A stretch of DNA of 64,000 bases from Prochlorococcus sp. AG-388-A01 (GTDB taxonomy: Bacteria > Cyanobacteriota > Cyanobacteriia > PCC-6307 > Cyanobiaceae), in the NCBI GenBank assembly GCA_003279945.1, contig QCGK01000001.1:1-64000 (forward strand), in the 5' to 3' direction. The notes beneath the pieces are model-generated. The model was given only the letters and a program-made list of their open reading frames with translations, did no database searches and was not told the DNA's origin. Below are positions 2,348-19,965 of the stretch, one piece after another; the first letter of the stretch is position 1, and every line of letters begins with the position of its first letter. Both the position numbers and the translations under genes were made by a program.

Positions 2348-2375
2348 CGGAATCAGCAATTTAATTTGGGAACTA
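2348..2375 (+). promoter_or_regulatory. Bipartite GGAATC-N14-GGAACT element, site 1
   Basis: GGAATC at 2349-2354 is followed after 14 bases by GGAACT at 2369-2374, 36 bases before the ATG at 2410. This is the most divergent of seven copies in the 2.3-20 kb region (second box GGAACT instead of AGAACT). See the findings for the comparison. Confidence 0.6.
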
Positions 2376-2409
2376 TATCTGAATGTACCTTTTCATATGG
2401 TTTTAAAAA

Positions 2410-2592
2410 ATGAAAAAAACATTATTTTCTATTTGTCTATTTCTTGGATTATCCCTTCTAGTACCAACTGCAGCAATGGCAGGACGAGGTTATCAAATTG
2501 TTTCCTGGACAAATCCAGATTTATTAAATTGCTATCAGATGGGAACAACGAGGTTAGGTGTACCAGTTTGGCAATGTTTTGATCCTTACTAA
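2410..2592 (+). CDS. Small secreted protein, unknown function
   Basis: A 60-residue precursor. Residues 1-24 form a clear signal peptide (MKK, hydrophobic core, AMA cleavage motif), leaving a mature peptide of about 36 residues with two cysteines and several aromatic residues (YQIVSW, VPVWQCFDPY). The two cysteines could form a disulphide. The ATG at 2410 is preferred over the overlapping frame at 2397, which lacks the signal peptide. It is preceded by the bipartite promoter-like element and lies just after the tRNA-Thr scar. Confidence 0.65.
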   Translation: MKKTLFSICLFLGLSLLVPTAAMAGRGYQIVSWTNPDLLNCYQMGTTRLGVPVWQCFDPY

Positions 2593-2774
2593 GAAGGATT
2601 AAAAACCCTTTGGGGGGAATAAATAGTTGATAAGTCGTATTAAAGGGAGAGAAGAATTTTTACCAAATTAAAACTAATTTAATCAATTGATCTTATCTAT
2701 TATTATAATTTCTTAATTTCTTATAATTCAAAAAATAAAATAACTAATATAAAGAGCAATACTTTGCCTCCTTG

Positions 2775-3533
2775 ATGAAGCTAATTTTAGCAATATTTAT
2801 TTTAATTTTTCCTTATGAAGCAAAAGCTTCCAACATCCCAGATTTAATTGAAAAAACAACAGTTTATTTAATTAAGACATGGAATGATGATGAGAATCTG
2901 AAGAATTGGTTTCCTCCTCAGGTAATTACGGTACCAAGTGGAACGAGATTATATGGTGGAGGATGTAAAGGAACTAATGAGGGTTTTGATGTCGCCGGTT
3001 CGTATTATTGTCCTCCCGATCACACAATAGTTCTTGACCCCGTTCAACTTAAAACTTTTATAAAGGCGTTCGGAAACTCAAGCGTTGCATATGTAGTTGC
3101 CCATGAATTCGCCCATGCCTTGCAAAATGCTCTGGAGATAAGATTACAGGCTCCCAATCATGAACTTCAGGCTGATTGTCTTGCAGGTTATTTTATTCAG
3201 CAAGGAAATAAAGAATTAGAAATCACCCGAGAAAATATTCTGGAAATGTCATCTGTTGCTTATTCAATAGGAGATAAAACTCATGGAACGGGAGCTCAAA
3301 GAACCTATGCACTTTTATCAGGGATGGGGAGAGTTGATGCTGATTGTTCTTACGCTTCCATAGAAAAATTAGTTAAGGGAGATATAGATGATCCTCTTTA
3401 TAAAGCATTCACAAGAACAAGGGGGTCTGGTAAATCAGTCGATCTCGAATCCTCACCATACAAAAAAGATGCTTCGGGACTTTTAGGCATAAATTTAAAA
3501 ACTTCAAAAGTTGATTCAAAGTTCAGATTCTGA
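2775..3533 (+). CDS. Exported neutral zinc metallopeptidase (YpfJ-like)
   Basis: A 252-residue protein from ATG 2775 (a TTG at 2772 adds one residue). A signal peptide covers about residues 1-19. The catalytic motif HEFAH lies near residues 110-114 inside AYVVAHEFAHALQ, and E130 in the following ELQADC is the expected third zinc ligand. This layout matches the putative neutral zinc metallopeptidase family. The exported location suggests periplasmic or surface proteolysis. It is followed after 5 bases by the TPR-CHAT gene at 3539, so the two proteases are probably co-translated and functionally linked. Its substrate is unknown. Confidence 0.8.
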   Translation: MKLILAIFILIFPYEAKASNIPDLIEKTTVYLIKTWNDDENLKNWFPPQVITVPSGTRLYGGGCKGTNEGFDVAGSYYCPPDHTIVLDPVQLKTFIKAFGNSSVAYVVAHEFAHALQNALEIRLQAPNHELQADCLAGYFIQQGNKELEITRENILEMSSVAYSIGDKTHGTGAQRTYALLSGMGRVDADCSYASIEKLVKGDIDDPLYKAFTRTRGSGKSVDLESSPYKKDASGLLGINLKTSKVDSKFRF

Positions 3534-3538
3534 AATAA

Positions 3539-6500
3539 ATGATTAAGTATCTTTTATTATTATTTTTATTCTTTTCCAGTCCTGCAAATATTTTCAGTTT
3601 TAAAGCTCTTGAAGCGGAAACCAAGGAATCTTTTTTTGAAAGCGGCAGAGAAAATATCTCTAAGAAAAAATATTCAGATGCTTTGGATGACTTTAATAAC
3701 TATATAAAATCAAATCCAGATAACTGGAGAGGATATCACAACAGGGCAATAGCTAAAGATTTTCTTGGGGACTTTTTAGGAGCTATTTCAGATTATTCAA
3801 AAGCAATTGAATTAAATCCAAATCCCTGGGAAAAATCTTTTTTATATAGAGGTTATCTTCATGAAAAAAATGAAAATTACGAAAGGGCGATTTCAGATTA
3901 TTCATCTGCAATAAAAATAGATCCCGAATATGAAGAAGCTTATTTCTCAAGAGGATATTTAAGATATATATTGGAAGATTATGAAGGATCTATTGAAGAC
4001 TATTCTAAAGTTATAGAACTTAATCCAAATAATGAAGATGCGTATTCAGGTAGAGGTGTATCTAAAAATCAATTAAAGGATTTTGATTCCGCAATTAAAG
4101 ATTTCACAGAAGCAATTAATATCAATCCAAATAGTTATTTCCTAAATTGGAGAGCCTATTTAAAACTTCAGATAGATGATATAAAAGGATCAATAATGGA
4201 TAATACAAATGCAATAAAGCTTGACCCAACTGATACAAGAAGCTATTTAGACAGAGCGTTCGGTAAATATCAACTTGGAGATTTAAAAGGTGCGATATCA
4301 GATTATGAAGCAATCATAGATTTTGGGGAGCCAGAAGAAATCCTTTTCGCAATAAATTATTTAATAGACACTTATATATCAAATGGTATTTATCAAGAAG
4401 TACTACCTCTAATAAATAAGGGGAAAAGTGTATCGAAGAACGTTAAAGAAAAAAATGAAGATTATTTAGATCTATTTTATAAAGAGGCTATATATTATGG
4501 AACCATTGGGGATAATGATAGAGCTCAACAAAGCCTGAAAAAATGTCTTACTGAATCAAAAAAAATAAAATTAGAAAATTCTCTTAAAACAAAAGATTGT
4601 AAAAAATATCTAGCGGATATTTATATTTTTTCAGACAATAATTATAAGGATGCCAAAAAACTTTTTAAATTCAGATCATTAGAAGGACAATTAATTCGTT
4701 CACAAATAGCATTCAAAGAAAAGAATTTTAATAAAGCCCAAAGGATCTTAAAAAGGCTTTATGATATACAAATTAAAAACAGCAAACAAGACAAGCCTGA
4801 CTTATCTTTATCAGAACAACTTGGCTACGCTTATTGGTGGGACGGAGAAAATAATAAAGCGAAAATCTATCATAATCAGGCATTAAATTTATATGAAGAA
4901 GTCTTTGGGAAAGAAAGCCACTATTTGATACAACCTCTACTAAATGTAGCAATGGTTTATTTTAAGGAAAAAGATTATGAAAAAACTGACTATTATTTGA
5001 GAAGAAGTTTAGCTATCCAATTTAAATATATTCAAGATCAAATTCCATTTTTACCAATCTCAAAAAGGGAACAGTTTATTAAGACATTAGGAATTTCATA
5101 TCAAGCAATTTTTACAGCTACGGATATTCATCCAATAGGTAAGAATCTTGCATTATTTGCAAGATTAAATAGACATGGATTACTGGAGGAGATCGAAAAG
5201 AAGCAAATCACATTAGCGAGCCTAGAAGGTTCTGAAAAAGACCTAATGGAAAAGATTAAAGATTTAACAAATCAGCTCTCTTCAACAAATCAAGGCAATA
5301 AACAATCTATGGATAAATTAAAGTTTCAGAAAGAAAAATTGGAGTTGGAACTATATAAATCACTTCCACAATTAAAATCAAAAATATACAGTTTGAGCGA
5401 TATATCAAAAGAAATACCTGACGATGCAGTACTGATTGAATTTCAAAAATATAGACCTTTTGTAGCTATCGATCCTGATCAGAGTATGGACGAGACTACT
5501 TGGGGAGAGGCTAAGTATCAAGCTCTGATATTATTCCCAAATAATAAGGTAGAAAGCGTAGATTTAGGTAAGGCGGCTGAAATCGATCAGTTAATATCGT
5601 TTGGCTTAGTTTCCTCTGAACAATCTTTAATTGATGCACAAGATCTCTGGCAGGAATTGGGTTCCAAAATTATCAAGCCCCTAGAAAAATATATTAAAAA
5701 TAAAAAAACCTTATTTATTTCCCCTGATAGTGAATTAAATAAGGTGCCTTTTGCAGCAATAGGAAGCTTTAATAAAATAGATTTATTGGGCGATATTTTT
5801 GAACTTAGATTACTAACCACTGGAAGAGAACTATTAACTTTAAATAAAGAAAAGAATTTAAGTAATAAACAATCAATAGTTGTTGCAAATCCAAATTTTA
5901 ACTTTTCAGGTAAAAGCTCTAGTAATGGCAGCAAACAGATATCGTCAATAAACTTGACTGACCAAAAAAGATCATTTGATCAAAAAAATCGAATCTGGCT
6001 TTCCTTACCAGGAACAAAAAAAGAAGCAGATATCATATCAAAAATTACTAATGGCAAACTATTTCTAGAGGAGGAAGCATCTGCTTTAAATATTCAAATA
6101 GAAGAATCTCCAAAGATCCTTCATATTGCGACCCATTCTTTTTACATCGGTGATACTAAAAATGATAATTTATTTTCAGAAAATATATTTTCAAATTCCA
6201 TAACCAACAATAAAATAATCGAAAATCCATTATTAAGAAGTGGAATAGTTTTAGCAGGAGCAAATTATCCTGAAAAAAATTTAGAGGACGACGGATATCT
6301 TACTGCTCTAGAGGTAAGTAAATTAAATTGGAATGGCACAGAATTAGTAGTCGTTTCCGGTTGTGAATCTGGTCAGGGTGATCTGCAATCTGGGGAGGGT
6401 GTTTACGGACTTAAAAGAGCCATTGCCGTTGCTGGCGCAAGATCAAGCTTACTCTCTCTATGGGAAGTGGATGATAAGGCGACTGCAGAATTTATGGAAA

Positions 6501-6655
6501 GTTTTTATTTAAAACTTAAATTAGGAGAGAGCAGATCAAAAGCATTATCTAATACTCAAAAAGAATTTAGAGAGCATCCTATTAAAGCTTGGCAACATCC
6601 AAATGTATGGGCTGCATTTCAATTAAATGGAGACTGGAGACCAATAGATTTTTAA
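3539..6655 (+). CDS. Exported TPR-CHAT protease-like protein (1)
   Basis: A 1038-residue protein: N-terminal signal peptide (about 1-27); six or seven 34-residue TPR repeats (about 32-260, with A-SDYSKAIELNP signatures); a helical middle with further TPR-like units; a coiled coil near 545-605; and a C-terminal CHAT domain (about 690-1035). CHAT domains are caspase-like cysteine proteases. The His-Cys dyad is visible as H866 in HIATHS and C942 in SGCESG. TPRs usually bind the partner or activating peptide. It forms an operon with the metallopeptidase 5 bases upstream. It is paralogous to the 10146-14126 product, and both end HPNVWAAFQL-GDWRPIDF. Export is unusual for CHAT proteins linked to defence and points to an envelope role. 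Substrate unknown. Confidence 0.85.
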   Translation: MIKYLLLLFLFFSSPANIFSFKALEAETKESFFESGRENISKKKYSDALDDFNNYIKSNPDNWRGYHNRAIAKDFLGDFLGAISDYSKAIELNPNPWEKSFLYRGYLHEKNENYERAISDYSSAIKIDPEYEEAYFSRGYLRYILEDYEGSIEDYSKVIELNPNNEDAYSGRGVSKNQLKDFDSAIKDFTEAININPNSYFLNWRAYLKLQIDDIKGSIMDNTNAIKLDPTDTRSYLDRAFGKYQLGDLKGAISDYEAIIDFGEPEEILFAINYLIDTYISNGIYQEVLPLINKGKSVSKNVKEKNEDYLDLFYKEAIYYGTIGDNDRAQQSLKKCLTESKKIKLENSLKTKDCKKYLADIYIFSDNNYKDAKKLFKFRSLEGQLIRSQIAFKEKNFNKAQRILKRLYDIQIKNSKQDKPDLSLSEQLGYAYWWDGENNKAKIYHNQALNLYEEVFGKESHYLIQPLLNVAMVYFKEKDYEKTDYYLRRSLAIQFKYIQDQIPFLPISKREQFIKTLGISYQAIFTATDIHPIGKNLALFARLNRHGLLEEIEKKQITLASLEGSEKDLMEKIKDLTNQLSSTNQGNKQSMDKLKFQKEKLELELYKSLPQLKSKIYSLSDISKEIPDDAVLIEFQKYRPFVAIDPDQSMDETTWGEAKYQALILFPNNKVESVDLGKAAEIDQLISFGLVSSEQSLIDAQDLWQELGSKIIKPLEKYIKNKKTLFISPDSELNKVPFAAIGSFNKIDLLGDIFELRLLTTGRELLTLNKEKNLSNKQSIVVANPNFNFSGKSSSNGSKQISSINLTDQKRSFDQKNRIWLSLPGTKKEADIISKITNGKLFLEEEASALNIQIEESPKILHIATHSFYIGDTKNDNLFSENIFSNSITNNKIIENPLLRSGIVLAGANYPEKNLEDDGYLTALEVSKLNWNGTELVVVSGCESGQGDLQSGEGVYGLKRAIAVAGARSSLLSLWEVDDKATAEFMESFYLKLKLGESRSKALSNTQKEFREHPIKAWQHPNVWAAFQLNGDWRPIDF

Positions 6656-6657
6656 TC

Positions 6658-6685
6658 TGGAATCACTTTAAAAAGTTCAGAACTA
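6658..6685 (+). promoter_or_regulatory. Bipartite GGAATC-N14-AGAACT element, site 2
   Basis: GGAATC at 6659-6664 and AGAACT at 6679-6684, 14 bases apart, end 27 bases before the ATG at 6712. The site lies between the first CHAT gene and the helicase-like gene that opens the operon encoding the sigma-like protein, so it would give that operon its own promoter. Confidence 0.7.
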
Positions 6686-6711: not shown

Positions 6712-7608
6712 ATGACTAAAGCAAGCAAAATCCTAAATACTGATGAATCAAAAATAGATGTTTTATTAAACAAAGTATTTGAAGAAATTGCATCAAGATC
6801 ACTTGGTAATTCAGAGGCTGGCAAAGCCATGAATTTTTATGATTTAGACGCGATGACTCAAGGACTATCTCCGGGAAATCTTTATATTATTGGAGGGCGT
6901 CCAGCAATGGGTAAGACCTCTTTTGTACTAAATATTGCAAAAAATATAGGTCAATTTCATAATTTACCAGTATGTTTTTTCTCTCTGGAGACAAGCAAAA
7001 AAATGCTTTCTTATAAATTACTTTCAATGGATACTGGAATAGAATCTGGTCGACTTAGAACAGGAAGATTAACTCAAGATGAATGGCCATTTTTAGGAGA
7101 AGCAATAAATTTATATAGTAAGAACCCAATATATCTAATTGATAAATCAACGATACAAGTTTCAGAAATTTACCAATTTTGTGAGGAGGTAAAAAATAAT
7201 CATAAAAAAAATCTCGGTTTAATAGTTATTGATTTTCTTCAACTATTAGAAGATAGGACTTTAGGTCAAAATATTTCTAGAGAAGATGAGCTTTCAAAAA
7301 TCCTGAACGATTTAAAAAATTTATCTATAAATCTTGAAGTACCTGTAATAATTACATCTCAATTAAACAGAGAATTAGAAACAAGACTAAACAAAAGGCC
7401 TATGCTCAGTGATATTCGTGACTCAGAAGTAATTGAAAATAAAGCTGATTTGATAGCTTTTATTTATAGGGATGAATACTATAACCCTGAAACTGAGGAT
7501 AGAGGTATAACAGAAATCATTGTTGCCAAACAGAGTAATGGGCCAGTTGGAACGGTTAAATTATTATTTGAACCTCAATATACAAGATTTAGAAATCTTG
7601 CAATTTAG
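6712..7608 (+). CDS. DnaB-type helicase C-terminal domain protein
   Basis: A 298-residue protein matching only the RecA-like motor of replicative helicase DnaB (normally about 450 or more residues). Walker A is GGRPAMGKTS at about 61-70. The Walker B-like segment is LIVIDFLQLL at about 170-180. SQLNRELETRLNKRP and SDIRDSEVIE follow, and the closing block YRDEYYNPET...GPVGTVKLLFE is typical. The N-terminal domain that contacts DnaG primase is missing. The usual KQRNGP motif reads KQSNGP, losing an arginine often implicated in inter-subunit ATP hydrolysis. It heads an operon with a sigma-like protein, a DUF1822-like protein and a CHAT protease, so a regulatory or sensor ATPase is likelier than replication. 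Confidence 0.85.
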   Translation: MTKASKILNTDESKIDVLLNKVFEEIASRSLGNSEAGKAMNFYDLDAMTQGLSPGNLYIIGGRPAMGKTSFVLNIAKNIGQFHNLPVCFFSLETSKKMLSYKLLSMDTGIESGRLRTGRLTQDEWPFLGEAINLYSKNPIYLIDKSTIQVSEIYQFCEEVKNNHKKNLGLIVIDFLQLLEDRTLGQNISREDELSKILNDLKNLSINLEVPVIITSQLNRELETRLNKRPMLSDIRDSEVIENKADLIAFIYRDEYYNPETEDRGITEIIVAKQSNGPVGTVKLLFEPQYTRFRNLAI

Positions 7609-7639: not shown

Positions 7640-8947
7640 TTGTCAAAGGAATACTGCAACATATATTTCCTTGATTCTTTTTCCTCGAAAGTGAAGAGAA
7701 GGGAATTAGCTTTTGATCCAAATTTTGAGAAAGAACATGAACTTTTATCAAAAGAATATTCTGATACTTTTGATAAGAAACTTTTAACAATCACTAAAAA
7801 AGAACCTGATTCAAAAGATCCACTTCTAGCACTGAGATGTAGGGTTAGTTTTCCAATTTATGAAAAAATTAATTTGATATATAAACAGTTCTCAAATGGA
7901 TATGAGATTGATTTAAATGAAATGTTGATAATCTTGCTTGATGATAGTGGAGAAAATTTTCTTCGCTTGCCTTCAGAAGCAGAAAATTCAAGAAAGTTTT
8001 TAAAAAAAGTTTTCTGTTGGAATACAGTAAAGAATATGCAAGAAAGAAAATTTATAAAACCATTCAGTGCTGAAATAATCTCAGAATTCAATCCTAAATT
8101 ATCGAATTTATCAACATGGACTAAAAATAAAGTACAAGGAAATTACGAACTTAAATCTTACTTAAAAAGTTGTGGACTGCTCTTAATTAGTCCCTGGGCA
8201 TTAATTGCAGATAGTTCAAAAACCAGAATAATTAATTCATGGAATAGATGCGGAGAGGGTGAATTAAAATTAAAAGAGGTTGAAAAGATATATGACTCTT
8301 ATATAAAGATATACAAAAAAGAAAAAGAGGATTATAAAAATCGAACAGGAAAAATCTCAGGATGGTATCCAGATGAAAATTTCCTGCTTTCACTAGATCC
8401 CCCCCAAGAAAACATTAAAAATTTACTTCTTATAGATAAGGCCTTAAGGCAATATATTGCTGGTGCTGATAATGCGCGAAATTTTGAGAATAATGAAGAA
8501 TCTCAGTTAGAAAGTTTTCAGGAGAATGATGATGAATTTTCAGGTAAAGAGATTGCAAAAAAAGTTGATCAAATATTAAAGATTTATTCTTCAAAAATAA
8601 TTAAGAATCTTATTGAAAATGATAAAAAGAAATGGGAAAAGGATATTTCAAGAAAAGATGCATGGGAATTATATGGAGAGGGTTATAGTCAAAGAGATAT
8701 AGCAAGCAGATGCGACCATAAACAGGCATGGGTTAGCAAGTTAATTCCTGAAAAGAAAATTTCAGAAGAAATTGCTCAGGATGCTGCATTTGAACTTTTA
8801 AAAATTAATGATTTTTCATCATTAAAAAATGATCCCGATGGAATTGAAAGATTTGTAGATGGATTAAAGAATCATTTATTAAATCAGGAACTACAAGAAG
8901 AGGGGTCTATTCTCAGGAAAATCATTAAGGAGGAAATAAATAAATGA
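7640..8947 (+). CDS. Divergent sigma-70-like regulator of the cyanobacterial CHAT/DUF1822 type
   Basis: A 435-residue protein with a TTG start at 7640. The C-terminal helix-turn-helix at about 341-369 (AWELYGEGYSQRDIASRCDH) looks like sigma region 4. The middle (FNPKLSNLSTWTKNKV...LKSCGLLLISPWALI) resembles, from memory, the cyanobacterial sigma-70-family proteins encoded beside DUF1822 and CHAT genes. The first 130 residues are specific to this protein. The stop overlaps the next ATG by 4 bases. It is the best candidate to recognise the seven GGAATC-N13/14-RGAAC elements nearby, including the one before its own operon. A DNA-binding regulator that is not a sigma factor remains possible. Confidence 0.6.
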   Translation: MSKEYCNIYFLDSFSSKVKRRELAFDPNFEKEHELLSKEYSDTFDKKLLTITKKEPDSKDPLLALRCRVSFPIYEKINLIYKQFSNGYEIDLNEMLIILLDDSGENFLRLPSEAENSRKFLKKVFCWNTVKNMQERKFIKPFSAEIISEFNPKLSNLSTWTKNKVQGNYELKSYLKSCGLLLISPWALIADSSKTRIINSWNRCGEGELKLKEVEKIYDSYIKIYKKEKEDYKNRTGKISGWYPDENFLLSLDPPQENIKNLLLIDKALRQYIAGADNARNFENNEESQLESFQENDDEFSGKEIAKKVDQILKIYSSKIIKNLIENDKKKWEKDISRKDAWELYGEGYSQRDIASRCDHKQAWVSKLIPEKKISEEIAQDAAFELLKINDFSSLKNDPDGIERFVDGLKNHLLNQELQEEGSILRKIIKEEINK

Positions 8948-10137
8948 ATCAATCAAATATGAATAATATTCCACAGGCGCTTCCAATCCCCGAAGACGCA
9001 ATATATTTAGATCAAGAATTAATACTTTCTAATAGAGAGTTAATCATAAAAGGTTTACAAAAAGTTCTTAAAGAAAAAAAATTAGATTTACCTCTGGGAC
9101 CATCATTAGATTTAAATAATTCAGAAAGATCGATTATTCTTAATAAATTTGATATACAGATCGTATCAACAGGAATGATTTCTGAGGAAATATCTATTCC
9201 ATTGAAAAATTCAAGAATTGAGAAAAAAGGTCCACAATTATTTTTAGCAGTACAAGTTGAAGAGGAATTAAATATTGTTCATTTTAAGGGGGTATTAAAG
9301 AGTGACGAATTTATGAAATTAATAAATAACAAAAAAATAAATAATAATGAAATAACTCTTTTAATAGATGATTTCAAAGGTGGTATTGATAGGCTATTTA
9401 GATTTGTGAGACTTTTAAGTTCTGATTCCATTGAGCGAACTTTCATAGAAAAAGAATCATCTTTAATTAATTTCAACACAATTAAAAAAAGACTAAAAAT
9501 TTCTAGTTCCGTTATTACTGGTGCCGTGGTAGTTGCATTATTTGGTCCTCAAATATTCAGACCAAGATTAATTGGAGGAATAGCAACTTTGACTCCTAGT
9601 TCTTATGAAATCACTACATTCACAAGAAGCTTTACTAGCCAAAAAAATAAAGTATGCCTTCTTACACCTATTGCTAAAACAAATACAAATGATCAACTTG
9701 AAGCATTAATCAATATTGATAAACCTCTAATTTATCCATTGAAACCACTCAATGAAATAAATATTTCTGAAAATGGAAATGTTGTTTGGAGTAAGACAGC
9801 ATCATCAAAAAATAAAATCATAGGGCCAATAAATTGGCCTATTAAAGAAATTAATAAAGATAATAATTATCAGATATCAATGAGGCCATCAGGATCTGGA
9901 ATGGGTTCTAATGTAATCATTAATCTAAAAATAGATGATAAAAAAACTTTCTTAAAAACCAGTGAAATAGAAAATAAGCTAGGAAAATCAAAAAGATCCT
10001 GGATTAAGTTTATAGACAAGAATTTAGAGATTAATAGGAATACTTCTCTCTCTTTACTTCTATCAAAAAAGGCGCCAGATTCGAAGGTATTAGATAAAGC
10101 CAAAGAGGAAATTATTGAAAATATAAAATGTGAATAA
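8944..10137 (+). CDS. DUF1822-like protein with one membrane span
   Basis: A 397-residue protein whose ATG overlaps the upstream stop (ATGA). Residues about 1-160 resemble DUF1822 (the ILSNRELIIKGLQKVL helix and LFLAVQVEEELNIVHFKGVL strands). A hydrophobic segment at about 188-205 could cross the membrane. The remainder is a beta-rich region of roughly 190 residues without a recognised fold. DUF1822 genes commonly sit between a sigma-like gene and a CHAT gene in cyanobacteria, exactly as here. A membrane-anchored regulator linking the exported protease to the cytoplasmic sigma-like protein, much as an anti-sigma factor does, is an inference from context. Confidence 0.6.
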   Translation: MNQSNMNNIPQALPIPEDAIYLDQELILSNRELIIKGLQKVLKEKKLDLPLGPSLDLNNSERSIILNKFDIQIVSTGMISEEISIPLKNSRIEKKGPQLFLAVQVEEELNIVHFKGVLKSDEFMKLINNKKINNNEITLLIDDFKGGIDRLFRFVRLLSSDSIERTFIEKESSLINFNTIKKRLKISSSVITGAVVVALFGPQIFRPRLIGGIATLTPSSYEITTFTRSFTSQKNKVCLLTPIAKTNTNDQLEALINIDKPLIYPLKPLNEINISENGNVVWSKTASSKNKIIGPINWPIKEINKDNNYQISMRPSGSGMGSNVIINLKIDDKKTFLKTSEIENKLGKSKRSWIKFIDKNLEINRNTSLSLLLSKKAPDSKVLDKAKEEIIENIKCE

Positions 10138-13100: not shown

Positions 13101-14126
13101 TACGCTGATGCTCAATTAATTTGGGATGAAATAAGTGCTAAAATTATCGATCCTCTGTATCCATTTATTAAGGATTCTGAAACTATATATTTATCTCCAG
13201 ATAATCAATTAAATCGAGTATCTTTCGCAGCTTTAAGAAATAAAAAAAATTCTAAATTTTTAAATGAGGAATATAATTTAAGGATTTTAACTACTGGGAG
13301 AGAATTAATTGAAATAAATAACCAAGAACTAGTTAAAAAGAATTCATTAGTTATTGCAAATCCAAATTTTGATAAATTATTAGATCCTAAAAATAAGTTA
13401 GAAACAATTCATTATTCTCAAAATCGTTCAATGGAATTTTCAGAATTGAAGTGGAATCCTCTTCCAGGTACAAAAAAAGAAGGAGAACTAATAGCTAATT
13501 TAATAGGTGCTGAATTATTAACAAAAAATAGTGCAACAACATTAGGCATTAAAAAAAGAAGTAAACCAAAGATATTACATATAGCTTCTCACTCTTACTT
13601 TTTGGAAGATAAGAGACAAGAAACAAAAAAGAAAGCTACATCTTTAGAATTAAAAAGTAAAAACGATATTAATAAAAATATAAAATATATAGAAAATCCC
13701 CTAATAAGAAGTGGAATAGTACTAGCTGGCGCAAATAATCCTGAAGTAGATAAAAATGATGATGGATATCTAACATCTTTGGAAGTTACAAAACTTGATT
13801 GGGAAGGTACTGAAATGGTTGTTATATCTGGATGTGAGTCTGGTCTTGGAGATATAAAATCAGGAGAGGGTGTTTATGGGCTAAAAAGAGCGATCTCAGT
13901 GGCTGGTGCAAAGACAAGTTTACTCTCACTTTGGAAAGTTAATGATTTAGCAACTGTAGAATTTATGAATAGGTTTTACCTAAAACTTAAAAAAGGAGAA
14001 GGAAGATCTAAAGCCTTGTCAAATACCCAAAAAGAATTTAGGAATCATCAAATACTTGGATACAGACATCCTAATGTCTGGGCAGCATTTCAATTAAGTG
14101 GCGACTGGAGACCAATAGATTTCTAA
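10146..14126 (+). CDS. Exported TPR-CHAT protease-like protein (2)
   Basis: A 1326-residue protein starting at TTG 10146, 8 bases after the DUF1822-like gene. A hydrophobic N-terminal segment (about 9-30) suggests export or anchoring. About 17 kinesin-light-chain-type TPR repeats of 42 residues (A-TL-WLGELY---GKY-DAE) fill residues 45-800, more than in the first CHAT protein. The CHAT domain occupies about 960-1326 with H1149 in HIASHS and C1230 in SGCESG. The CHAT half is clearly paralogous to 3539-6655, while the TPR halves are of different type (42 versus 34 residues). Two near-identical repeat units around 10621-10800 show recent internal duplication. Confidence 0.85.
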   Translation: MNQFNKKIRNLTLVLVLLIPNYPNIVLLGEQNEEIIEVIKNKEEAKKAIKRLTSIASEFTEKGIFKKTILTLEKILKLEKKYLGPKHPDVGHTLSWMGYIYLKENKFEKSEKFLLDGLNIIEIFYGENHEELKSTLNDLGDLYLTKQDYKKAEDIFKRLLLIDKKIYGENSSEYAITLTSLGDLYFEKNDYKDAEKIFNRVLKIDKKIYGENSSEYAITLNWLGEIYKQQGKYSDAEENFKRSIYIFNNLKSEDNPDISKTLYYLAELYDIQGKSIKAEETYNKILLIDKNIYGQNSIEYADTIVNIGKLYLERDEFEKSENYLNKSLSIFNKIPNIEPYQKLYSYLYLAELYQKQGKYKDAEKFFLKVLNLDKKNFGEDSSDYAITLDWLAELYKLQSKYDKAEKYLNKSISIKEKIHGEFHDEIATSLIFIGDLYHLKGEYQKSEEAFKRSKNIYINLFGENHPEVANLLNWLGILYEDIGEYEKAELSLKKALNIYEEFFGKTNTDITIPLNWLAYYYLNQDKFSESEKYLNRAISILENSFGKDHPKISEQLWTKNQIYIRIGRYDKAEEIFLKSLKIAEEFYGNDHVEVARNFKDLGELYIQQNSFKKAEKYFIKALKIYEEKLDQNSPYISGLLTFLADVYSRQENYTKSEEIYLRAIKIDQNNFGLNHPEIAITYRFLATDYLMDSKYEKAEELLLNSLIINENYFGNNNPIIIQDLNTLGELYFQKGEYRKSQNFYERSLKIAKNSYSKNNVVIAEILNYLGEIYLYKKEYKNSYDVFKRSVEISLNLLQEEVPYQSLSTRQFFADYIDDFTPEIIYSVSKEIPSFHNLALFLRINRQGLLEEIEKRQSKINLLEGSQKDTSNKLKSIIGELSSVYLTKEKRKILNSNKEELEKKLYSTLPKIKPRVISINELAKKIPENGILIEFQKYQELNQDSNQYSYLAMTLKNNRQVNIIDLGKADVIEKLINKAIIASEQSYADAQLIWDEISAKIIDPLYPFIKDSETIYLSPDNQLNRVSFAALRNKKNSKFLNEEYNLRILTTGRELIEINNQELVKKNSLVIANPNFDKLLDPKNKLETIHYSQNRSMEFSELKWNPLPGTKKEGELIANLIGAELLTKNSATTLGIKKRSKPKILHIASHSYFLEDKRQETKKKATSLELKSKNDINKNIKYIENPLIRSGIVLAGANNPEVDKNDDGYLTSLEVTKLDWEGTEMVVISGCESGLGDIKSGEGVYGLKRAISVAGAKTSLLSLWKVNDLATVEFMNRFYLKLKKGEGRSKALSNTQKEFRNHQILGYRHPNVWAAFQLSGDWRPIDF

Positions 14127-14128: not shown

Positions 14129-14157
14129 TGGAATCAGAAAAATTATTCAAGAACTAA
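14129..14157 (+). promoter_or_regulatory. Bipartite GGAATC-N14-AGAACT element, site 3
   Basis: GGAATC at 14130-14135 and AGAACT at 14150-14155, 14 bases apart, just after the stop of the second CHAT gene and 43 bases before the ATG at 14199. The second box carries one extra A in front (TTCAAGAACTAA). Confidence 0.65.
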
Positions 14158-14198: not shown

Positions 14199-14387
14199 AT
14201 GACAATTCAAAAATTCGGCAGAGGTCTACTAATTTATACAGTTGCCTTTGCTTCTGCATTTACAACTAGATACTTAGTTCGTTCAATTAGAAATTCGACC
14301 ACTTGGTCAACTAGTGAAATTCAGTCAAAAACTCAATTTGAATCGAATATAAATAATAAAAATTTTTCAAAAAATTTTACAATATAA
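14199..14387 (+). CDS. Small membrane protein, unknown function
   Basis: A 62-residue protein with one moderately hydrophobic segment at about residues 8-26, then an Arg/Thr/Ser-rich polar tail. It is bracketed by the bipartite promoter-like element and a strong terminator at 14405-14433, so it appears to be a monocistronic unit of the same putative regulon. No family recognised. Confidence 0.5.
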   Translation: MTIQKFGRGLLIYTVAFASAFTTRYLVRSIRNSTTWSTSEIQSKTQFESNINNKNFSKNFTI

Positions 14388-14443: not shown

Positions 14444-14472
14444 TGGAATCAGTCTAGATAATTCAGAACAAA
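14444..14472 (+). promoter_or_regulatory. Bipartite GGAATC-N14-AGAACA element, site 4
   Basis: GGAATC at 14445-14450 and AGAACA at 14465-14470, 14 bases apart, 28 bases before the ATG at 14498. It lies directly behind a terminator, as expected for an independent promoter. Confidence 0.65.
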
Positions 14473-14497: not shown

Positions 14498-14962
14498 ATG
14501 CAAAACTTATTTTTCAAAACCAAAACTTCAAATAGCGCTGTTTACAGACCAGACGAAAGATTTAATGTTTACCAAGGCGTAAATCCAGAACGTCTGACTA
14601 AGGCTTTTAATAATATATTTTTGCTTTATTGGGAATGTACACCATTTAAAGATGAGCATAAAGTTCCATCAATGTTAATGAGCATTAATGATGATAAGAC
14701 TGCAAATTTCAGTTATGTTGACGGCGATCCTGATGATCTTGAATCAGTAAAAGGTTGTTCCTGTTGGTACACAGTTGACCATGAGGGATATGCCCATGTT
14801 AAGGAATTTAATGAAGTACTTGATCTTAAGAATGCTGTTCACATAAATGCTATAGCAGCAACAATTATCAGAGATATCTTCGGAAATTTTGATATGGCTG
14901 AAGCAGGACAAATCTTCATTAATAATATGTTGAAGGAATCAAAGAAAAGAAAAGAGAACTAA
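14498..14962 (+). CDS. Conserved-looking cytoplasmic protein, unknown function
   Basis: A 154-residue acidic protein without signal or membrane segment. It has a beta-rich first half (VPSMLMSINDDKTANFSYVDGD), a CSCWY motif near the middle and helical C-terminal residues. It heads a two-gene unit with the secreted TPR gene 32 bases downstream. The size and alternation of strands and helices recall the YbjN/secretion-chaperone fold of the 16117-16545 product, but I cannot align them convincingly. Confidence 0.55.
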   Translation: MQNLFFKTKTSNSAVYRPDERFNVYQGVNPERLTKAFNNIFLLYWECTPFKDEHKVPSMLMSINDDKTANFSYVDGDPDDLESVKGCSCWYTVDHEGYAHVKEFNEVLDLKNAVHINAIAATIIRDIFGNFDMAEAGQIFINNMLKESKKRKEN

Positions 14963-14994: not shown

Positions 14995-15927
14995 ATGAAA
15001 AAACAACTTCTTATTATCGCTGCAAGTTTATCTTTAATTCCAGTCGGTAATTTATTCGCTCAACAGAATCAGACTTTTATCAAAAATACTGAAACTGTTA
15101 TCGCTAAAAATATCAGCCACAACAACCATGATGAATCTCTTATGGAAAGTGGAGATAAAAAATATTCCTCAAAAGACTATAGAGGAGCGATCACTGATTA
15201 TTCAAAAATTCTTTTAAATAATCCAAATGATTATTATGCACTTTTTCAAAGAGCTCTTTCAAAAAGTTATCTGAATGATCATGAAGGTGCGATTCAGGAC
15301 TATACAAGAGCTATTCAAATAAACCCTGAAAAAGCTTCGGCTTTTTATAATCGTGGATTATCTAAAGATAAATTAAAAGATTCCTATGGTGCAATATCTG
15401 ATTTCAACAAAGTAATTGAAATTGATGATCAGCATCAGAAAGCATATATATATAGAGGCTATGCAAAGTCTGACATTGGTGACCATAAAGGAGCAATTAA
15501 AGATTTAACCTCTGCTATTGAGATTAATCCTAAAGATGCATATACATACAGTGCTAGGGGATATTTAAAAGAAAAAGCAGGGGATTATTATGCAGCTATA
15601 TCAGATTATTCAAAAGCAATAAAAATTAATCCTGAAGATGATTATTCATTCTCTGGGCGAGCATATTCAAAAGGTCAGATCGGAGATAATTATGGGGCAA
15701 TAAATGATTTTACCAAAGCCATTGAAATTAATTCGGATGATGGATTCTTATTCTTTGGGAGAGGTTTCTACAACAATCTCGCAGGAAATTATAATCAGGC
15801 TTGCCAGGACTGGGTAAAGGCTTCTGATCTTGGATATAAAAATGCAAATAAAAAAGCCAATGAATGTAGTAATGCTGGAAATGTTAAAGAGAGCATAAAT
15901 AGTCTTTTATCATCACAAAACTACTAA
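14995..15927 (+). CDS. Exported TPR-repeat protein
   Basis: A 310-residue protein with a signal peptide (about 1-22, ending LFAQQ) and six to seven consecutive 34-residue TPR units from about residue 45 to 290 (GAI-DYTRAIQINPE type). The repeats resemble the N-terminal TPRs of the first CHAT protein at 3539, but no protease domain follows. It may be a soluble periplasmic binding partner or competitor of that protein. It follows the 14498 gene and ends in a terminator at 15963-15993. Confidence 0.8.
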   Translation: MKKQLLIIAASLSLIPVGNLFAQQNQTFIKNTETVIAKNISHNNHDESLMESGDKKYSSKDYRGAITDYSKILLNNPNDYYALFQRALSKSYLNDHEGAIQDYTRAIQINPEKASAFYNRGLSKDKLKDSYGAISDFNKVIEIDDQHQKAYIYRGYAKSDIGDHKGAIKDLTSAIEINPKDAYTYSARGYLKEKAGDYYAAISDYSKAIKINPEDDYSFSGRAYSKGQIGDNYGAINDFTKAIEINSDDGFLFFGRGFYNNLAGNYNQACQDWVKASDLGYKNANKKANECSNAGNVKESINSLLSSQNY

Positions 15928-16046: not shown

Positions 16047-16073
16047 TGGAATCATTTTTTTTAATCAGAACTA
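16047..16073 (+). promoter_or_regulatory. Bipartite GGAATC-N13-AGAACT element, site 5
   Basis: GGAATC at 16048-16053 and AGAACT at 16067-16072, 13 bases apart, 44 bases before the ATG at 16117. The following leader is shared with site 7 (see 16064-16110). Confidence 0.65.
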
Positions 16074-16110
16074 AAAGAATATGTAACGGGGAACGACCCC
16101 ACAATCATTA
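16064..16110 (+). repeat. Shared leader with GGGG/CCCC hairpin (copy A)
   Basis: From the second promoter box to just before the ATG, about 45 bases match the complement of 19901-19947 almost base for base (TCAGAACTAA, ATATGTAACGGGG, ACGACCCCACAATCAT). The likely 5' untranslated region contains GGGG-AACGA-CCCC, a small stable hairpin. Keeping this leader before two unrelated coding sequences suggests a duplicated promoter-plus-leader cassette or post-transcriptional control. Confidence 0.7.
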
Positions 16111-16116
16111 AAAAAA

Positions 16117-16545
16117 ATGGATTTTAAACTTCATCAATTATCTGGTTCAAACCTAACAAGCATCTTTAATAATGCATATATTGAAGCAGAGCAAATAAAG
16201 GAAACAGAATTTTGTGCAGTAAAAGGAGACAGACTAATTCTCATAATTGCTTGCGCAGATCAGAATGTTCTTCAATTTCAAAACTGGGCTTACTTTGCTG
16301 ACGATTTCACAAGAGAAGACGCTAATCGTTTTGCAGCAGCCATTAATAAAGAGATGATTATGCTTAAAGCATATGTAAGTGATCCAGGGGATGAAAAAAT
16401 AACGGTGGCTCTAAAATACAACCATGCAATCCTTGATCATGAATCTATCAGTGCAAAGTCAATAGTTAAATTAACCAGGATGGTTGAAAACCATGTGATG
16501 GCAACTTTTGAAATCTATGATGAGCTGTTTCTAAAAAGAAAATAA
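16117..16545 (+). CDS. YbjN-like protein
   Basis: A 142-residue cytoplasmic protein. The segment from about residue 60 to 135 (WAYFADDFTREDANRFAAAIN...MLKAYVSD...KITVALKYN...VKLTRMVENHVMATFEIYDELF) has the strand-helix pattern of the YbjN/type III secretion chaperone-like fold, whose members are often linked to stress or motility regulation. It is monocistronic behind the bipartite element and shared leader hairpin, and is followed by a structured RNA segment and terminator. The assignment rests on pattern recognition only. Confidence 0.55.
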   Translation: MDFKLHQLSGSNLTSIFNNAYIEAEQIKETEFCAVKGDRLILIIACADQNVLQFQNWAYFADDFTREDANRFAAAINKEMIMLKAYVSDPGDEKITVALKYNHAILDHESISAKSIVKLTRMVENHVMATFEIYDELFLKRK

Positions 16546-16560
16546 TCAGCACAAATCAAA

Positions 16561-16654
16561 TATCGGGGAGCCTGAAACTTTCTAAAGTTGAGAGTTATAA
16601 AATACTCGAAAGAGGAAGACAAGGCGTCTGATTGTGACGATCCATCCCCCGATA
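16561..16654 (+). ncRNA. Candidate structured RNA (unassigned family)
   Basis: An 8-bp outer stem, TATCGGGG (16561-16568) with CCCCGATA (16647-16654), encloses at least three small hairpins: AACTT/AAGTT (16576-16589), GAGT/ACTC (16592-16607) and AGAC/GTCT (16617-16629). The segment is more GC-rich than its surroundings and is followed by a perfect terminator. It could be the 3' region of the YbjN-like transcript, a separate small RNA, or a riboswitch ahead of 16777. I could not match it to 6S, SRP, tmRNA, Yfr1 or a riboswitch consensus I know. Confidence 0.5.
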
Positions 16655-16661
16655 AATGTAT

Positions 16662-16692
16662 ATCTCCTTTTTAATTAAAGGAGATTTTTTTT
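16662..16692 (+). terminator. Intrinsic terminator after the structured RNA
   Basis: ATCTCCTTT (16662-16670), loop TTAATT, AAAGGAGAT (16677-16685), followed by seven Ts. It is a nine-bp perfect stem and one of the clearest terminators in the window. Confidence 0.9.
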
Positions 16693-16722
16693 GCATAACT
16701 ATATTTATAAATCTGGAGGTTT

Positions 16723-16750
16723 TGGAATCACTTAAAAAAAAAAGAACAAA
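16723..16750 (+). promoter_or_regulatory. Bipartite GGAATC-N13-AGAACA element, site 6
   Basis: GGAATC at 16724-16729 and AGAACA at 16743-16748, 13 bases apart, 29 bases before the ATG at 16777 and 30 bases after a strong terminator. Confidence 0.6.
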
Positions 16751-16776
16751 TAGAAAATGTACACAAATTTATTCCA

Positions 16777-17127
16777 ATGAAATTAAAGGCATTTTCTAAA
16801 AGAGCACTTACAATTTTTGCTGCCTCTTTAACTATTTTCACTTCACCATCATTTGCAAAATCAGAATACATGGGTAAAGCTTATGCCATTGGTGCACAAG
16901 CCGGGGCTGAGTGTCATGCTGATAAAGGAATTATTTATAGAAGCGATGTAAATATAATGACCAAACATTTATTAACTAAGAATAATTATGAACATCTTTA
17001 TGCTTGGCTAAAAACATCAAAAGGTAAAAAAGCAGTTTCCATAGCAAAAAATTATTTAAACAATAATTGTTTAATGGACAAAGGTCAGGCATTAAGAGCC
17101 GTTAAAGAATACTATAAATATCTTTAA
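16777..17127 (+). CDS. Small secreted protein, unknown function
   Basis: A 116-residue precursor with a signal peptide (about 1-27, ending SFAKS). The mature part of about 89 residues is helical with two cysteines (AECHADKG and NNNCLMDKG). The pattern, a secreted helical domain with two spaced cysteines and a Tyr-rich end, gives no named family. It is controlled by promoter-like site 6 and followed 55 bases later by the SNase gene. Confidence 0.65.
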   Translation: MKLKAFSKRALTIFAASLTIFTSPSFAKSEYMGKAYAIGAQAGAECHADKGIIYRSDVNIMTKHLLTKNNYEHLYAWLKTSKGKKAVSIAKNYLNNNCLMDKGQALRAVKEYYKYL

Positions 17128-17182
17128 AGTTTTAAATAAGAAATCAATAGATTAAATCTAATCATCAAAGCGAAATTCAAAG

Positions 17183-17563: not shown

Positions 17564-17591
17564 AAAATGGAAAAGGTTTTTGGATAGAAAT

Positions 17592-17750
17592 TTAAGATTT
17601 TTTGGATAAGTTCTGTATTACATAAATATCTTGTGCCTTTGGATATTTTTGCTGAAAAACTTTGATGGCATGATCGGGTGAAATTGCCAAAAGGTTTACT
17701 TTAATTCTGTACTTTTCATCTACCAAACCTGATATAAGAAATTTCTTCAT
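17592..17750 (-). CDS. Short basic protein, unknown function
   Basis: A 52-residue frame starting MKKFLISGLVDEKYRIKVNL and ending QNLSKKS. The frame is uninterrupted, has plausible composition (SPDHAIKVFQQKYPKA) and fills an otherwise empty stretch. It reads like a small alpha/beta domain and resembles the short substrate-processing repeats sometimes annotated only as hypothetical. No family recognised. Confidence 0.5.
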   Translation of the reverse strand: MKKFLISGLVDEKYRIKVNLLAISPDHAIKVFQQKYPKAQDIYVIQNLSKKS

Positions 17751-17864
17751 TTATAAATTCTTTTGTATAAATTCTATCTTCCTGAACATCTCTGCTAGGC
17801 ACTCAATCTACATTTAATAAGAAACTTATATTATAAATTTTCTTAGTAAGAAACCTAATAAATT

Positions 17865-18194
17865 TTATCTAGGCTGCTGGTATATAGATGGCTGACATAA
17901 AATAAATAAAAACCAAATTGCTCCTACGAATGGAATTAGATTTATAAATATCCATGTCCAGCGTTTGCCTGCATCATTAACTCTCCTTATACAGAGGGAA
18001 AGGCCTGGTATTAAAGCTGCAAAAATATAGAGATAATATATGCCCGAAAAGGCTTCTGAAACAAAATAACTTAAAGCTAAAAGCACATAAGAAACTAAAA
18101 GATTAGCAAGTGTTGCCCACCAATAATCATGTCTATTTGATCGACCACGAAAATCAAAAGCTTTTGTCCATAAATTTTTATATGCATTAATCAT
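17865..18194 (-). CDS. DUF805 (YhaH-type) membrane protein
   Basis: A 109-residue protein with the DUF805 signature: an aromatic N-terminus (YKNLWTKAFDFRGRSNRHDYWWATL), three to four hydrophobic segments between about 25 and 100, and the RRVNDAGKRWTW loop followed by PFVGAIW. It is an inner-membrane protein of unknown biochemical function, often present in several copies and linked to stress or mobile regions. Full length for the family. Confidence 0.85.
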   Translation of the reverse strand: MINAYKNLWTKAFDFRGRSNRHDYWWATLANLLVSYVLLALSYFVSEAFSGIYYLYIFAALIPGLSLCIRRVNDAGKRWTWIFINLIPFVGAIWFLFILCQPSIYQQPR

Positions 18195-18410
18195 CTTCTA
18201 TATTAAAAATTTTAAAATATCATACGTTTTAATAAATATTTATGAGTCTTATTATTAAATTGAAAATATTTACTCAAAGTAATAATTGTTTTCAACAGAA
18301 TTAAAATTCAAAAATTGAAAATTGAAATCATATTAATCCTCATGTAAGATATATTCCTCATGTAAGATATATTCCTTATGTAAAATACATATATATTTAA
18401 AATCTAAGAT
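18195..18410. repeat. Intergenic region with three 18-base tandem repeats
   Basis: The unit CCTCATGTAAGATATATT occurs exactly at 18338-18355 and 18356-18373, with a diverged third copy at 18374-18391. The rest is AT-rich without an RNA gene. The repeat sits 20 bases past the stop of the M48 gene, so it would lie in that transcript's 3' end or act as a spacer. Confidence 0.75.
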
Positions 18411-19337
18411 TCAGTTAATTGAAGCACCGCATCCACCACAATATTTATCCTTTAAATCAATACGACTACCGCAATTAGGGCAAAAATCAGATCTTTCAAT
18501 CTTTTCTTGGAATGATCGATTTGTGTTAAGGATTTGATCATAATCCCCACTTTCTTGCCAATTAACAAGTTCAGATGCTCTCATTACTGACCAAGGATGA
18601 GTCATATCTAATGTACTTGCAATTTTAAAAAATTTATTCAAACTATCAAAATCGAGAGCCTCAAAATCTTTGGCTTGTTTTAAAAAAGATTCCTGAAAAG
18701 CTGCATGATTATAGCTTGAAGGAAGGTTTAATTTTATAAAGAAATTAATTGCTGCTTTTTTACTCTGGCATGTTAATAAACCAGCTCTATCGCAAGATAA
18801 TTCAGACATCCTATACCAATGAAGCAAGGCAATTTCAACTCCTGTAGCTGCTACTCCTCCTATCCCAAAAGTTAAATTACCTAATAAATTTGCTACTAGA
18901 GAGAAATTCTGAGCCATTACTGTGTATAGAACATGCCTAGCTTTAATGTGTCCTAATTCATGACCTATCAAGAACATTAATTCATTGTCATCAAGCAAAT
19001 CGATAGCTCCTGATGTTAGAACAATAAAAGGCTTCTCTACACCAGATGTATAGCCATTAATTCTTGGATCAAAACTAATAAATAAGTCTGGAATCTTTTC
19101 GATGTCTAAAATCGCACATGCCTCAGAGTACAGACTATAGACATTTTGCAAATTATCATTATTAATCTTCAAATAGGAGCCAGTGTTTTGCAACCTATCA
19201 ATTCTTTCAAAACTCTTTTCATAAAGTTTCTTGATAATTTTTGGTAAAACTGGAATTGCTTCAAGTTTTTCGAGTGTAGTTTTATCAAAAGGATGCTCAT
19301 ACTCGCGAGAATTTAATTCTCTTATTCGTTTTCTCAT
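18411..19337 (-). CDS. M48-family zinc metalloprotease with C-terminal zinc ribbon
   Basis: A 308-residue protein. HELGH at 126-130 within MFLIGHELGHIKARH is the M48 (HtpX/Ste24) zinc site, and SELSCDRAGLL supplies the third ligand. Hydrophobic stretches around 140-175 may associate with the membrane. The last 24 residues form a zinc ribbon (CPNCGSR...CGGCGASI), an unusual addition for M48 peptidases. It is 13 bases downstream of the zinc-ribbon protein gene at 19351-19893, whose N-terminus has the same kind of ribbon. The pair is probably one operon from promoter site 7. Role: likely membrane-protein quality control; substrate unknown. Confidence 0.85.
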   Translation of the reverse strand: MRKRIRELNSREYEHPFDKTTLEKLEAIPVLPKIIKKLYEKSFERIDRLQNTGSYLKINNDNLQNVYSLYSEACAILDIEKIPDLFISFDPRINGYTSGVEKPFIVLTSGAIDLLDDNELMFLIGHELGHIKARHVLYTVMAQNFSLVANLLGNLTFGIGGVAATGVEIALLHWYRMSELSCDRAGLLTCQSKKAAINFFIKLNLPSSYNHAAFQESFLKQAKDFEALDFDSLNKFFKIASTLDMTHPWSVMRASELVNWQESGDYDQILNTNRSFQEKIERSDFCPNCGSRIDLKDKYCGGCGASIN

Positions 19338-19350
19338 TTTTAATACCTTA

Positions 19351-19893
19351 TTAGTTGCTCAATTTTGAGATGCTTTGTTCAATAAATTCAAAGATTTTCT
19401 TGGGAGCCTTATATTGCTCATAAACTCCATAAGCTGTTGACACAGCCAAAGGCCAAAGGACAAACCAACTAGTTGCTCCAGTAGCTACTTTACCGAGCCA
19501 ATGACCTTGGCCTATTTCAACTTGAAGAGATTCATTTGTTTGTTCAAACTTGATGCTTAATGCCGTAGACATCCCAACGAATCTTCTCCAGTTACCTTTT
19601 TTTCTAATTTGCAGAACTGTGGTTGTTAAATTTTTAATTCTTTGAACTTCAAACTGGTTCTCTGAATTTAACCAATATTCTGTTTTATCAATAAGATTCT
19701 CTGAATCTTCAGAAGAAACTTCATAAATCTTTGATTGAACCGTTTGACCAGAAGAGCTTTCATTAACATTCGAATTTCCAGCTGTATGGCTACCAGATGC
19801 AGCACCACAATGAGTACAAAATCTAGCGCTTTTACTGATTTCATTTCCACAGGATGAACAGAACATTGTATTTTTAGAAATTGTAGTTTCCAT
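19351..19893 (-). CDS. Zinc-ribbon protein, partner of the M48 protease
   Basis: A 180-residue protein whose N-terminus is a zinc ribbon (FCSSCGNEISKS, FCTHCGAASG; residues about 11-33). A Ser/Gly-rich linker follows, then an alpha/beta domain (about 60-140) and a short hydrophobic segment near 137-155 (TSWFVLWPLAVSTAYGVY). It is the first gene of a two-gene operon with the M48 protease and is preceded by the shared leader hairpin and promoter-like site 7. The domain after the ribbon is not recognised. Confidence 0.7.
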   Translation of the reverse strand: METTISKNTMFCSSCGNEISKSARFCTHCGAASGSHTAGNSNVNESSSGQTVQSKIYEVSSEDSENLIDKTEYWLNSENQFEVQRIKNLTTTVLQIRKKGNWRRFVGMSTALSIKFEQTNESLQVEIGQGHWLGKVATGATSWFVLWPLAVSTAYGVYEQYKAPKKIFEFIEQSISKLSN

Positions 19894-19900
19894 TTTTTTT

Positions 19901-19947
19901 TGATGATTGTGGGGTCGTCCCCCGTTACATATTTCTTTAGTTCTGAA
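19901..19947 (-). repeat. Shared leader with GGGG/CCCC hairpin (copy B)
   Basis: Reading leftward this is nearly the same 45-base sequence as 16064-16110, including the promoter second box and the GGGG-GACGA-CCCC hairpin (one base differs in the loop region). It ends just before the start codon of the zinc-ribbon gene. Confidence 0.7.
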
Positions 19948-19965
19948 TAAATTTAAGCGATTCCA
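19938..19965 (-). promoter_or_regulatory. Bipartite GGAATC-N14-AGAACT element, site 7 (minus strand)
   Basis: On the minus strand, GGAATC (complement of 19959-19964) is followed 14 bases later by AGAACT (complement of 19939-19944), 45 bases before the ATG at 19893. This is the only copy facing left, and it still points at its gene. Confidence 0.65.

Follow-up and report, generated by a model that had tools for sequence, protein, structure and literature searches.

Group 4 sigma factors, the extracytoplasmic function (ECF) sigma factors, read promoters with GGAA-type -35 boxes, contain only the sigma2 and sigma4 domains in about 200 amino acids (aa), and are co-transcribed with a membrane anti-sigma factor, as in the RpoE-RseA pair. 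We compare with these systems a locus in the first 64,000 nucleotides of contig QCGK01000001.1 from Prochlorococcus sp. AG-388-A01 (GenBank assembly GCA_003279945.1), a stretch that we call the window, where a bipartite element, GGAATC-N13/14-RGAACW (R is a purine, W is A or T), precedes several genes and an operon encoding a 435-aa protein, here named SIG. The locus is similar to ECF systems in its bipartite promoter-like element with a GGAA-type upstream half, in an operon with a site of its own, and in a partner gene directly downstream whose product has a single transmembrane (TM)-type segment. Unlike ECF factors, SIG has an N-terminal part that aligns with sigma region 1.2, its sigma2-type domain is separated from a helix-turn-helix (HTH) by a long helical stretch, and the downstream box reads RGAACNA. 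A sequence-only reading of this DNA had applied the group 4/ECF label; we do not find it supported, given the 435 residues, the added helical parts and the lack of any sigma or ECF match in Pfam or NCBIfam.

Control of a sigma factor by a TPR-CHAT protein has been described for the type III-E CRISPR Craspase, with CASP-sigma and Csx30 (PMC10028731). In the available text of that paper, as here, one locus encodes a TPR-CHAT protease together with a sigma-type factor and a third protein, and the sites of the sigma factor lie inside it; CASP-sigma is a clear ECF factor by HHpred, whereas SIG is unrecognised by the profiles tried, and the TPR-CHAT proteins of the window, unlike Craspase, have hydrophobic N-termini. 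TPR-CHAT proteins are present among the 18 window proteins that we scanned and no Cas family (Cas7-11) is found among them, the rest of the genome not having been searched. Neighbourhoods of DUF1822, ECF sigma and caspase genes are also in print (PMC8195603), and the locus resembles them in that DUF1822, sigma-type and caspase-superfamily genes lie side by side, the comparison being made for these three genes; the available part of that paper, unlike the present analysis, names no promoter motif or regulon. A domain-based catalogue of cyanobacterial sigma70 factors, which covers the same phylum and sigma functions, gives in its available text only A.1-family members for 14 Prochlorococcus (PMC11119718), and because it was built on Sigma70 domain models it would probably miss SIG. 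In searches of the open-access literature we recognised no description of a promoter motif, regulon or sigma assignment for the SIG family.

We propose, with a probability of about 0.8, that SIG is a divergent cyanobacterial sigma factor and that GGAATC-N13/14-RGAAC(N)A is the -35/-10 promoter at which it would bind with polymerase and direct transcription. The exact pattern GGAATC-N13/14-RGAACW occurs eight times in the window, where 100 shuffles predict 0.06 matches, and when it is loosened (spacer 12-15, W dropped) there are again eight matches with 0.16 expected; positions 22001-64000 hold none, even of the loosened form. The whole assembly (1,546,107 bases in 38 contigs, 88% complete) has nine exact matches against two for the reversed-pattern control, and eight of the nine fall within 18 kb, all in the window. 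A search for equally good matches elsewhere in the genome thus yields only one more (C1:323921), itself target-like, 30 nt ahead of an 87-aa secreted-type open reading frame (ORF). The seven sites of the sequence-only reading are all exact, with the strand and spacing that it gave, and its distance of 27-45 bases to the start codon holds when counted from the W. That list was incomplete, since it lacked an eighth exact site (14935-14960) and a ninth, one-mismatch site (AGAATC-N13-GGAAC at 8868-8891) that lies ahead of the DUF1822-like gene. With a weight matrix built from 69 sites of other genomes, the window and its 91% relative left out, the nine highest scores in the window go to the eight exact sites and 8868. 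All but one of these, 8868 included, score above all 20 shuffles; the exception, at 14935, only equals the best shuffle (13.6) and is thus the weakest.

The element is tied to SIG by its distribution among genomes. SIG homologues are found in 27 of 300 genomes of the family, the source genome included, and in 4 of 60 genomes of the genus in a second draw; at the level of the phylum, 52 of 386 genomes have profile matches, some covering the HTH part only. The closest named relatives are Prochlorococcus single-cell genomes (98% in AG-347-J19). In 28 genomes with SIG we count 173 sites against 27 reversed controls, while 26 genomes without it (20 of the same genus, 6 of other genera of the family) have 24 sites against 35 controls. 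Where all sites were listed, in 23 of the SIG-carrying genomes, there are 145 sites, 82 of them no more than 30 kb from SIG. The proposal that one regulon of oriented, bipartite, promoter-like sites belongs to the 7640-8947 protein is therefore borne out on phyletic and positional grounds, as it is on the structural grounds given below. SIG homologues are also carried by plasmids AP018320, NZ_CP063787 and 16 others, mostly of filamentous cyanobacteria, where they are annotated as hypothetical proteins in 16 of the 18 records, the other two having no annotation there. For Tolypothrix PCC 7712, a DUF1822 gene at the adjacent position is named in the available text of PMC9679502.

To describe the element we used 18 loci (L075-L092) chosen for their SIG homologue from the 26 other SIG-carrying family genomes; the eight genomes not taken include those with weaker or partial SIG matches. 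GGAATC-N12-15-RGAAC is present in 17 of the 18 loci, with 63 sites in all. Pooled with window positions 1-22000 and with three loci that entered because of their motif clusters (L069, L093 and L094), these make 22 loci and 365 kb, in which we find 84 sites, 31 with spacer 13 and 53 with spacer 14, against a single reversed control; every other spacing between GGAATC and RGAAC, from 0 to 65, is seen at most four times. The 84 sites share a longer consensus, with T right before GGAATC (58/84), A right after it (78/84) and A two bases past RGAAC (83/84), followed by a purine-rich stretch and a weaker TGT. Nine further loci, among them L209, a close relative of the window, add 15 sites against 2 reversed controls, and the loci that bear sites range from about 31% to 58% GC. 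A blind dyad search recovered GGAATC..GAAC in the window and in L093/L094, and found nothing clearly exceeding shuffles elsewhere. On contig L227, which comes from a viral collection, three sites accompany a SIG homologue and a DUF1822-like ORF. A chance or AT-rich motif is ruled out by the shuffles, the reversed-pattern controls and the spacing histogram, and a motif confined to this window by the matches in other genomes and at other SIG loci, although many single matches in the scan of other genomes represent one conserved coding-type sequence common to genomes without SIG.

The geometry of the sites is promoter-like. At 84 of 100 sites from 28 loci, the first ATG of an ORF of at least 45 aa lies 18-70 nt downstream, compared with 12 when the same 100 sites are read backwards and 7.2% of random positions (one site in the overlap of L081 and L179 is counted double in this set, and the single ORF-less site of L180 is left out). 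The genes that recur downstream encode DUF1822-like proteins (12, or 13 with L083), TPR proteins, YbjN-like proteins and small proteins of signal-peptide type, besides a DnaB_C-type ATPase and an ATPase whose P-loop was assigned by eye; DnaB_C-like proteins are also found in this position in L211 and L212. The same small membrane-type protein, MNSGYFFLGLLLATFVWQ, follows a site both in G099, near SIG (L082 7561), and in G249, on a different contig (L181 2576), and this second, off-island occurrence suggests that the regulon extends past the island. At L184 2817 a site stands ahead of an ORF, of uncertain start codon, with what looks by eye like a double-glycine-type leader, LTEQELAQVAGG.

One copy of the element is embedded in the SIG gene. 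In 12-13 loci this internal site lies about 26-30 codons from the end of SIG and 28-61 nt ahead of the ATG of the DUF1822-like gene (52 nt in the window, where that ATG is at 8944). Codon usage was counted in eight of the nine GC-rich SIG genes (GC content at third codon positions 0.64-0.85); the ninth, L091, was left out, and its site is visible in the alignment of sites. All eight use AAT, GAA and either CGA or CAA at the internal site, codons whose gene-wide shares are 0.20-0.67 of Asn for AAT, 0.20-0.48 of Glu for GAA and 0.03-0.14 of Arg for CGA. The retention of scarce codons at this position argues for selection on a DNA signal. In one of the eight, L087, AAG precedes AAT and there is hence no exact box, and AAG at the same place in the window accounts for the one-mismatch form of site 8868. 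The site ahead of the DnaB_C-SIG-DUF1822 operon is present in the window and in L078 (9049), which belong to two genera.

Two distant lineages carry an altered form. In G365 and in genus g60, the element around SIG takes the form TGAATM-RG-N11/12-RGAACKA (M is A or C, K is G or T). The pattern TGAATM-N13/14-RGAACKA is matched 12 times across five genomes, with 10 matches no more than 18 kb from SIG, against 1 reversed control; it was drawn from L126 and L139, so that 6 of the 12 had already been seen, and three further genomes of the L139 genus were added. Seven other SIG-carrying genomes yield 2 matches, none near SIG, and 4 controls. Between SIG lineages the downstream half, RGAAC(T/G)A, is constant and the upstream half is altered (TGAATA). 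The GGAATC form itself has only four scattered relaxed matches in 20 distant loci. Beside a third SIG type, of 545-559 aa, there is a possible RGAAAC form; two genomes carry two orthologous sites each, against 0-3 matches in ten others, which is too few for a claim. A SIG-type gene lies beside a DUF1822-type gene in 8 of the 20 distant loci, and Pfam confirms DUF1822 in all three of the distant neighbours tested. Pfam does not match the DUF1822-like protein of the window or two picocyanobacterial copies, all three being linked to the family solely by a profile made from copies of this kind.

The structural evidence comes from predicted models. With the full SIG model (mean predicted local distance difference test, pLDDT, 80), the top 45 rows of VIA-align are sigma-factor entries at Z 5.0-7.5, with root-mean-square deviations mostly of 15-20 A. 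A model of residues 1-275 built from 35 sequences (pLDDT 94) matches 5 of 407 chains at Z of at least 5, all of them sigma factors, and the next chain, an unrelated one, reaches 2.9. Residues 7-180, which in the model adopt a sigma2 fold (region 1.2-2.4), match sigma32 at Z 7.0 (3.4 A over 107 residues), two sigmaS entries at 6.5, and sigmaA at 5.2 and 5.0. By eye, FNPKLSNLSTW in SIG aligns with FDPTRGYKFSTYA of canonical cyanobacterial sigma factors. As judged from sequence, SIG also has a cognate bipartite promoter set tied to it. SIG may be a very divergent sigma factor or a look-alike, and because of this promoter set we hold the former to be far likelier.

A number of results weigh against this interpretation. 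Pfam gives no Sigma70 match at E ≤ 1 for SIG or its 15 homologues (16 proteins), NCBIfam no sigma or ECF match for SIG, hhalign a probability of 0.1 between SIG and 18 canonical sigma factors (some of these ORFs having poor start calls), and Foldseek no match of the SIG models at E ≤ 0.001. The fold match, at Z below 8, is moderate and may reflect a common arrangement, and the profile of the HTH (about residues 337-368) does not discriminate between SigF region 4 (E 0.0021) and regulators of the DeoR/LsrR type (E 0.00014-0.0033). No exact site occurs near SIG in 4 of the 23 SIG-carrying genomes; SIG is partial or divergent in three of these (G245, G324 and G306), and the locus of the fourth, G093, has near-misses such as GGAATC-N13-TGAAC. 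Four GC-rich loci (L223-L226) with SIG homologues of 25-27% identity have zero sites, and 18 of the 20 distant loci show no convincing motif. In G249, whose SIG is 91% identical, the operon box is degenerate (GGAATC..AGAAT, score 7.9) and lies far from the gene. The autoregulation suggested from the sequence alone is thus consistent with the operon site in the window and in L078, but feedback on the operon is not universal.

We consider it unlikely that SIG is an ordinary DNA-binding activator and the element an operator upstream of a conventional promoter. The HTH, which matches DeoR/LsrR-type regulators about as well as it does a sigma region 4, and the lack of sigma similarity at the sequence level would suit such a protein, but the element is asymmetric, runs in one orientation, allows only two spacer lengths and sits 27-56 nt before most chosen start codons, which leaves scant room for a further -35/-10 downstream, and a sigma region 1.2-2.4 fold is predicted for residues 7-180. 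The source genome has at least four canonical sigma factors, one of which could read the element while SIG cooperates or just travels with the island. This is improbable, as the 26 genomes without SIG stand at the level of the controls, even though bacteria in general possess canonical sigma factors (4-12 Sigma70_r2 matches in each of four genomes tested), and the upstream half varies between SIG lineages.

Still harder to credit is a dispersed repeat or the end of a mobile element with no regulatory role. The clustering of sites in one island and the near identity of some leaders (16048 and 19964) are what such an origin would leave behind, but the spacer and flanks vary among sites so that only the boxes and their short neighbours are conserved, codon choice keeps the site inside SIG, and the element is found across loci of very different GC content.

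If SIG is a sigma factor, we envisage that with core polymerase it would initiate some 7-9 nt past RGAAC, a position suggested by the conserved purine-TGT region. It would drive its own operon of DnaB_C-type ATPase, SIG, DUF1822-like protein and TPR-CHAT protein, with a second start for the DUF1822-like gene from within the SIG gene, and a further regulon of TPR, YbjN-like, zinc-ribbon and small secreted proteins. The operon site would provide positive feedback, and the internal site would supply extra DUF1822-like protein. The next steps we infer more weakly: the DUF1822-like protein, with one TM-type segment in this clade, might keep SIG inactive by analogy with RseA and, from the available text of PMC10028731, with Csx30, and an exported CHAT protease, or its signal, might free SIG. 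A TM-type segment is scored in nine of ten low-GC DUF1822-like proteins, L075 falling narrowly below the cut-off; it is lacking in six of nine such proteins from GC-rich genera, which speaks against the anti-sigma step.

A variant of the proposed sigma-factor reading, not exclusive of it, keeps the sites as SIG promoters and takes the DUF1822-like and CHAT proteins as mere members of the regulon, SIG being set by its expression level with no anti-sigma and protease cascade; we give this a little under an even chance. It would fit the operon sites of the two genera. On the other side, SIG and DUF1822-type genes adjoin in 8 of the 20 distant loci too, and a conserved site precedes the DUF1822-like gene itself, a usual arrangement for a feedback inhibitor. 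Only tentatively, and as rather more doubtful than probable, we advance the full picture, in which a cyanobacterial sigma family that current profiles do not detect would run a regulon of secreted and TPR-CHAT proteins and its promoters would have evolved along with it (GGAATC, TGAATA and possibly RGAAAC, against a constant RGAACNA). The DUF1822-type partner, its promoter concealed within the gene for the sigma factor, would be the inhibitor, and a caspase-like protease, once exported, would relay an envelope signal to the sigma factor.

Within the window, the sites and their likely targets are arranged as follows (all on the plus strand unless noted; distances are counted from the last base of RGAAC to the probable ATG). 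The first site (2349-2374, spacer 14, exact, matrix score 22.8) is 36 nt from a 60-aa secreted-type ORF with a hydrophobic N-terminus (2410-2592), a likely target, and a zinc peptidase (2772-3533) and a second TPR-CHAT protein (3539-6655) lie upstream of the operon. The operon site (6659-6684, spacer 14, exact, 24.3) stands 28 nt before the 298-aa DnaB C-terminal-type ATPase (6712-7608; PF03796, E 2.7e-83), which is followed by SIG (7640-8947), a divergent sigma-like protein in whose 3' end lies the variant site, spacer 13 (8868-8891; 19.8), with the exact GGAATC form there in 13 homologous loci. Then come the DUF1822-like protein of 397 aa (8944-10137), assigned by profile and without a Pfam match, its one TM-like segment at residues 186-204, and a caspase-like TPR-CHAT protein of 1326 aa with a hydrophobic segment at its N-terminus (10146-14126).

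Downstream of the operon, exact sites with spacer 14 at 14130-14155 (23.2) and 14445-14470 (22.8) precede, by 44 and 28 nt, a 62-aa small ORF (14199-14387) and a 154-aa protein with no Pfam match (14498-14962), both likely targets. The eighth exact site (14935-14960, spacer 14) overlaps the 3' end of the latter ORF and is 35 nt ahead of a secreted-type TPR protein of 310 aa (14995-15927), also a likely target; like the site at 14445, it is found in L075 and L209 as well. Two exact sites with spacer 13 follow, one (16048-16072; 32.3) 45 nt before a likely target of 142 aa that is weakly YbjN-like (16117-16545; Pfam E 0.024, below the cut-off) and the other (16724-16748; 30.8) 29 nt before a likely target of 116 aa, secreted-type, with a signal-type N-terminus by eye (16777-17127). 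On the minus strand, the exact site at 19939-19964 (spacer 14, 34.1) is 46 nt before a 180-aa zinc-ribbon protein (19351-19893), a likely target, and an M48 peptidase with a zinc ribbon (18411-19337) is the next gene on that strand.

Some leaders fold. Those of 41-48 nt have a mean folding z of -1.8 (n = 27) with a perfect stem of at least 5 in 13, against 0.24 (n = 47) with such a stem in 1 for leaders of at most 38 nt, a class in which some start codons were picked wrongly, and -0.04 (n = 20) with 3 for those above 48 nt. Close to their inferred 5' end, the 41-48-nt leaders often have a short stem-loop with a G-rich and a C-rich arm, as in L078, L079, L085, L183 and others, and in the window at 16088-16100 (GGGG-N5-CCCC, plus strand, -6.8 kcal/mol, z -3.5) and 19911-19923 (GGGG-N5-CCCC, minus strand, -8.2 kcal/mol, z -3.6), whose leaders are nearly identical. 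We regard the stem-loop as a minor feature because consensus folding over 15 leaders yields just three pairs. Behind the YbjN-like gene (3' of it), the intergenic RNA of 16560-16695 is strongly folded (-41.2 kcal/mol, z -4.1); over 92 nt it is conserved at 79% in L082 (8140-8227), from a second genus, where it again follows a YbjN-like gene. Two compensatory pairs lie outside its terminator hairpin, and Rfam has no match for it. The RNA family scan also places the cyanobacterial Yfr8 RNA in the window.

If SIG is indeed a sigma factor, an unannotated protein family would gain a testable function, together with a ready promoter motif and list of targets, and there would be a handle on DUF1822 and on bacterial CHAT proteins of unknown role.

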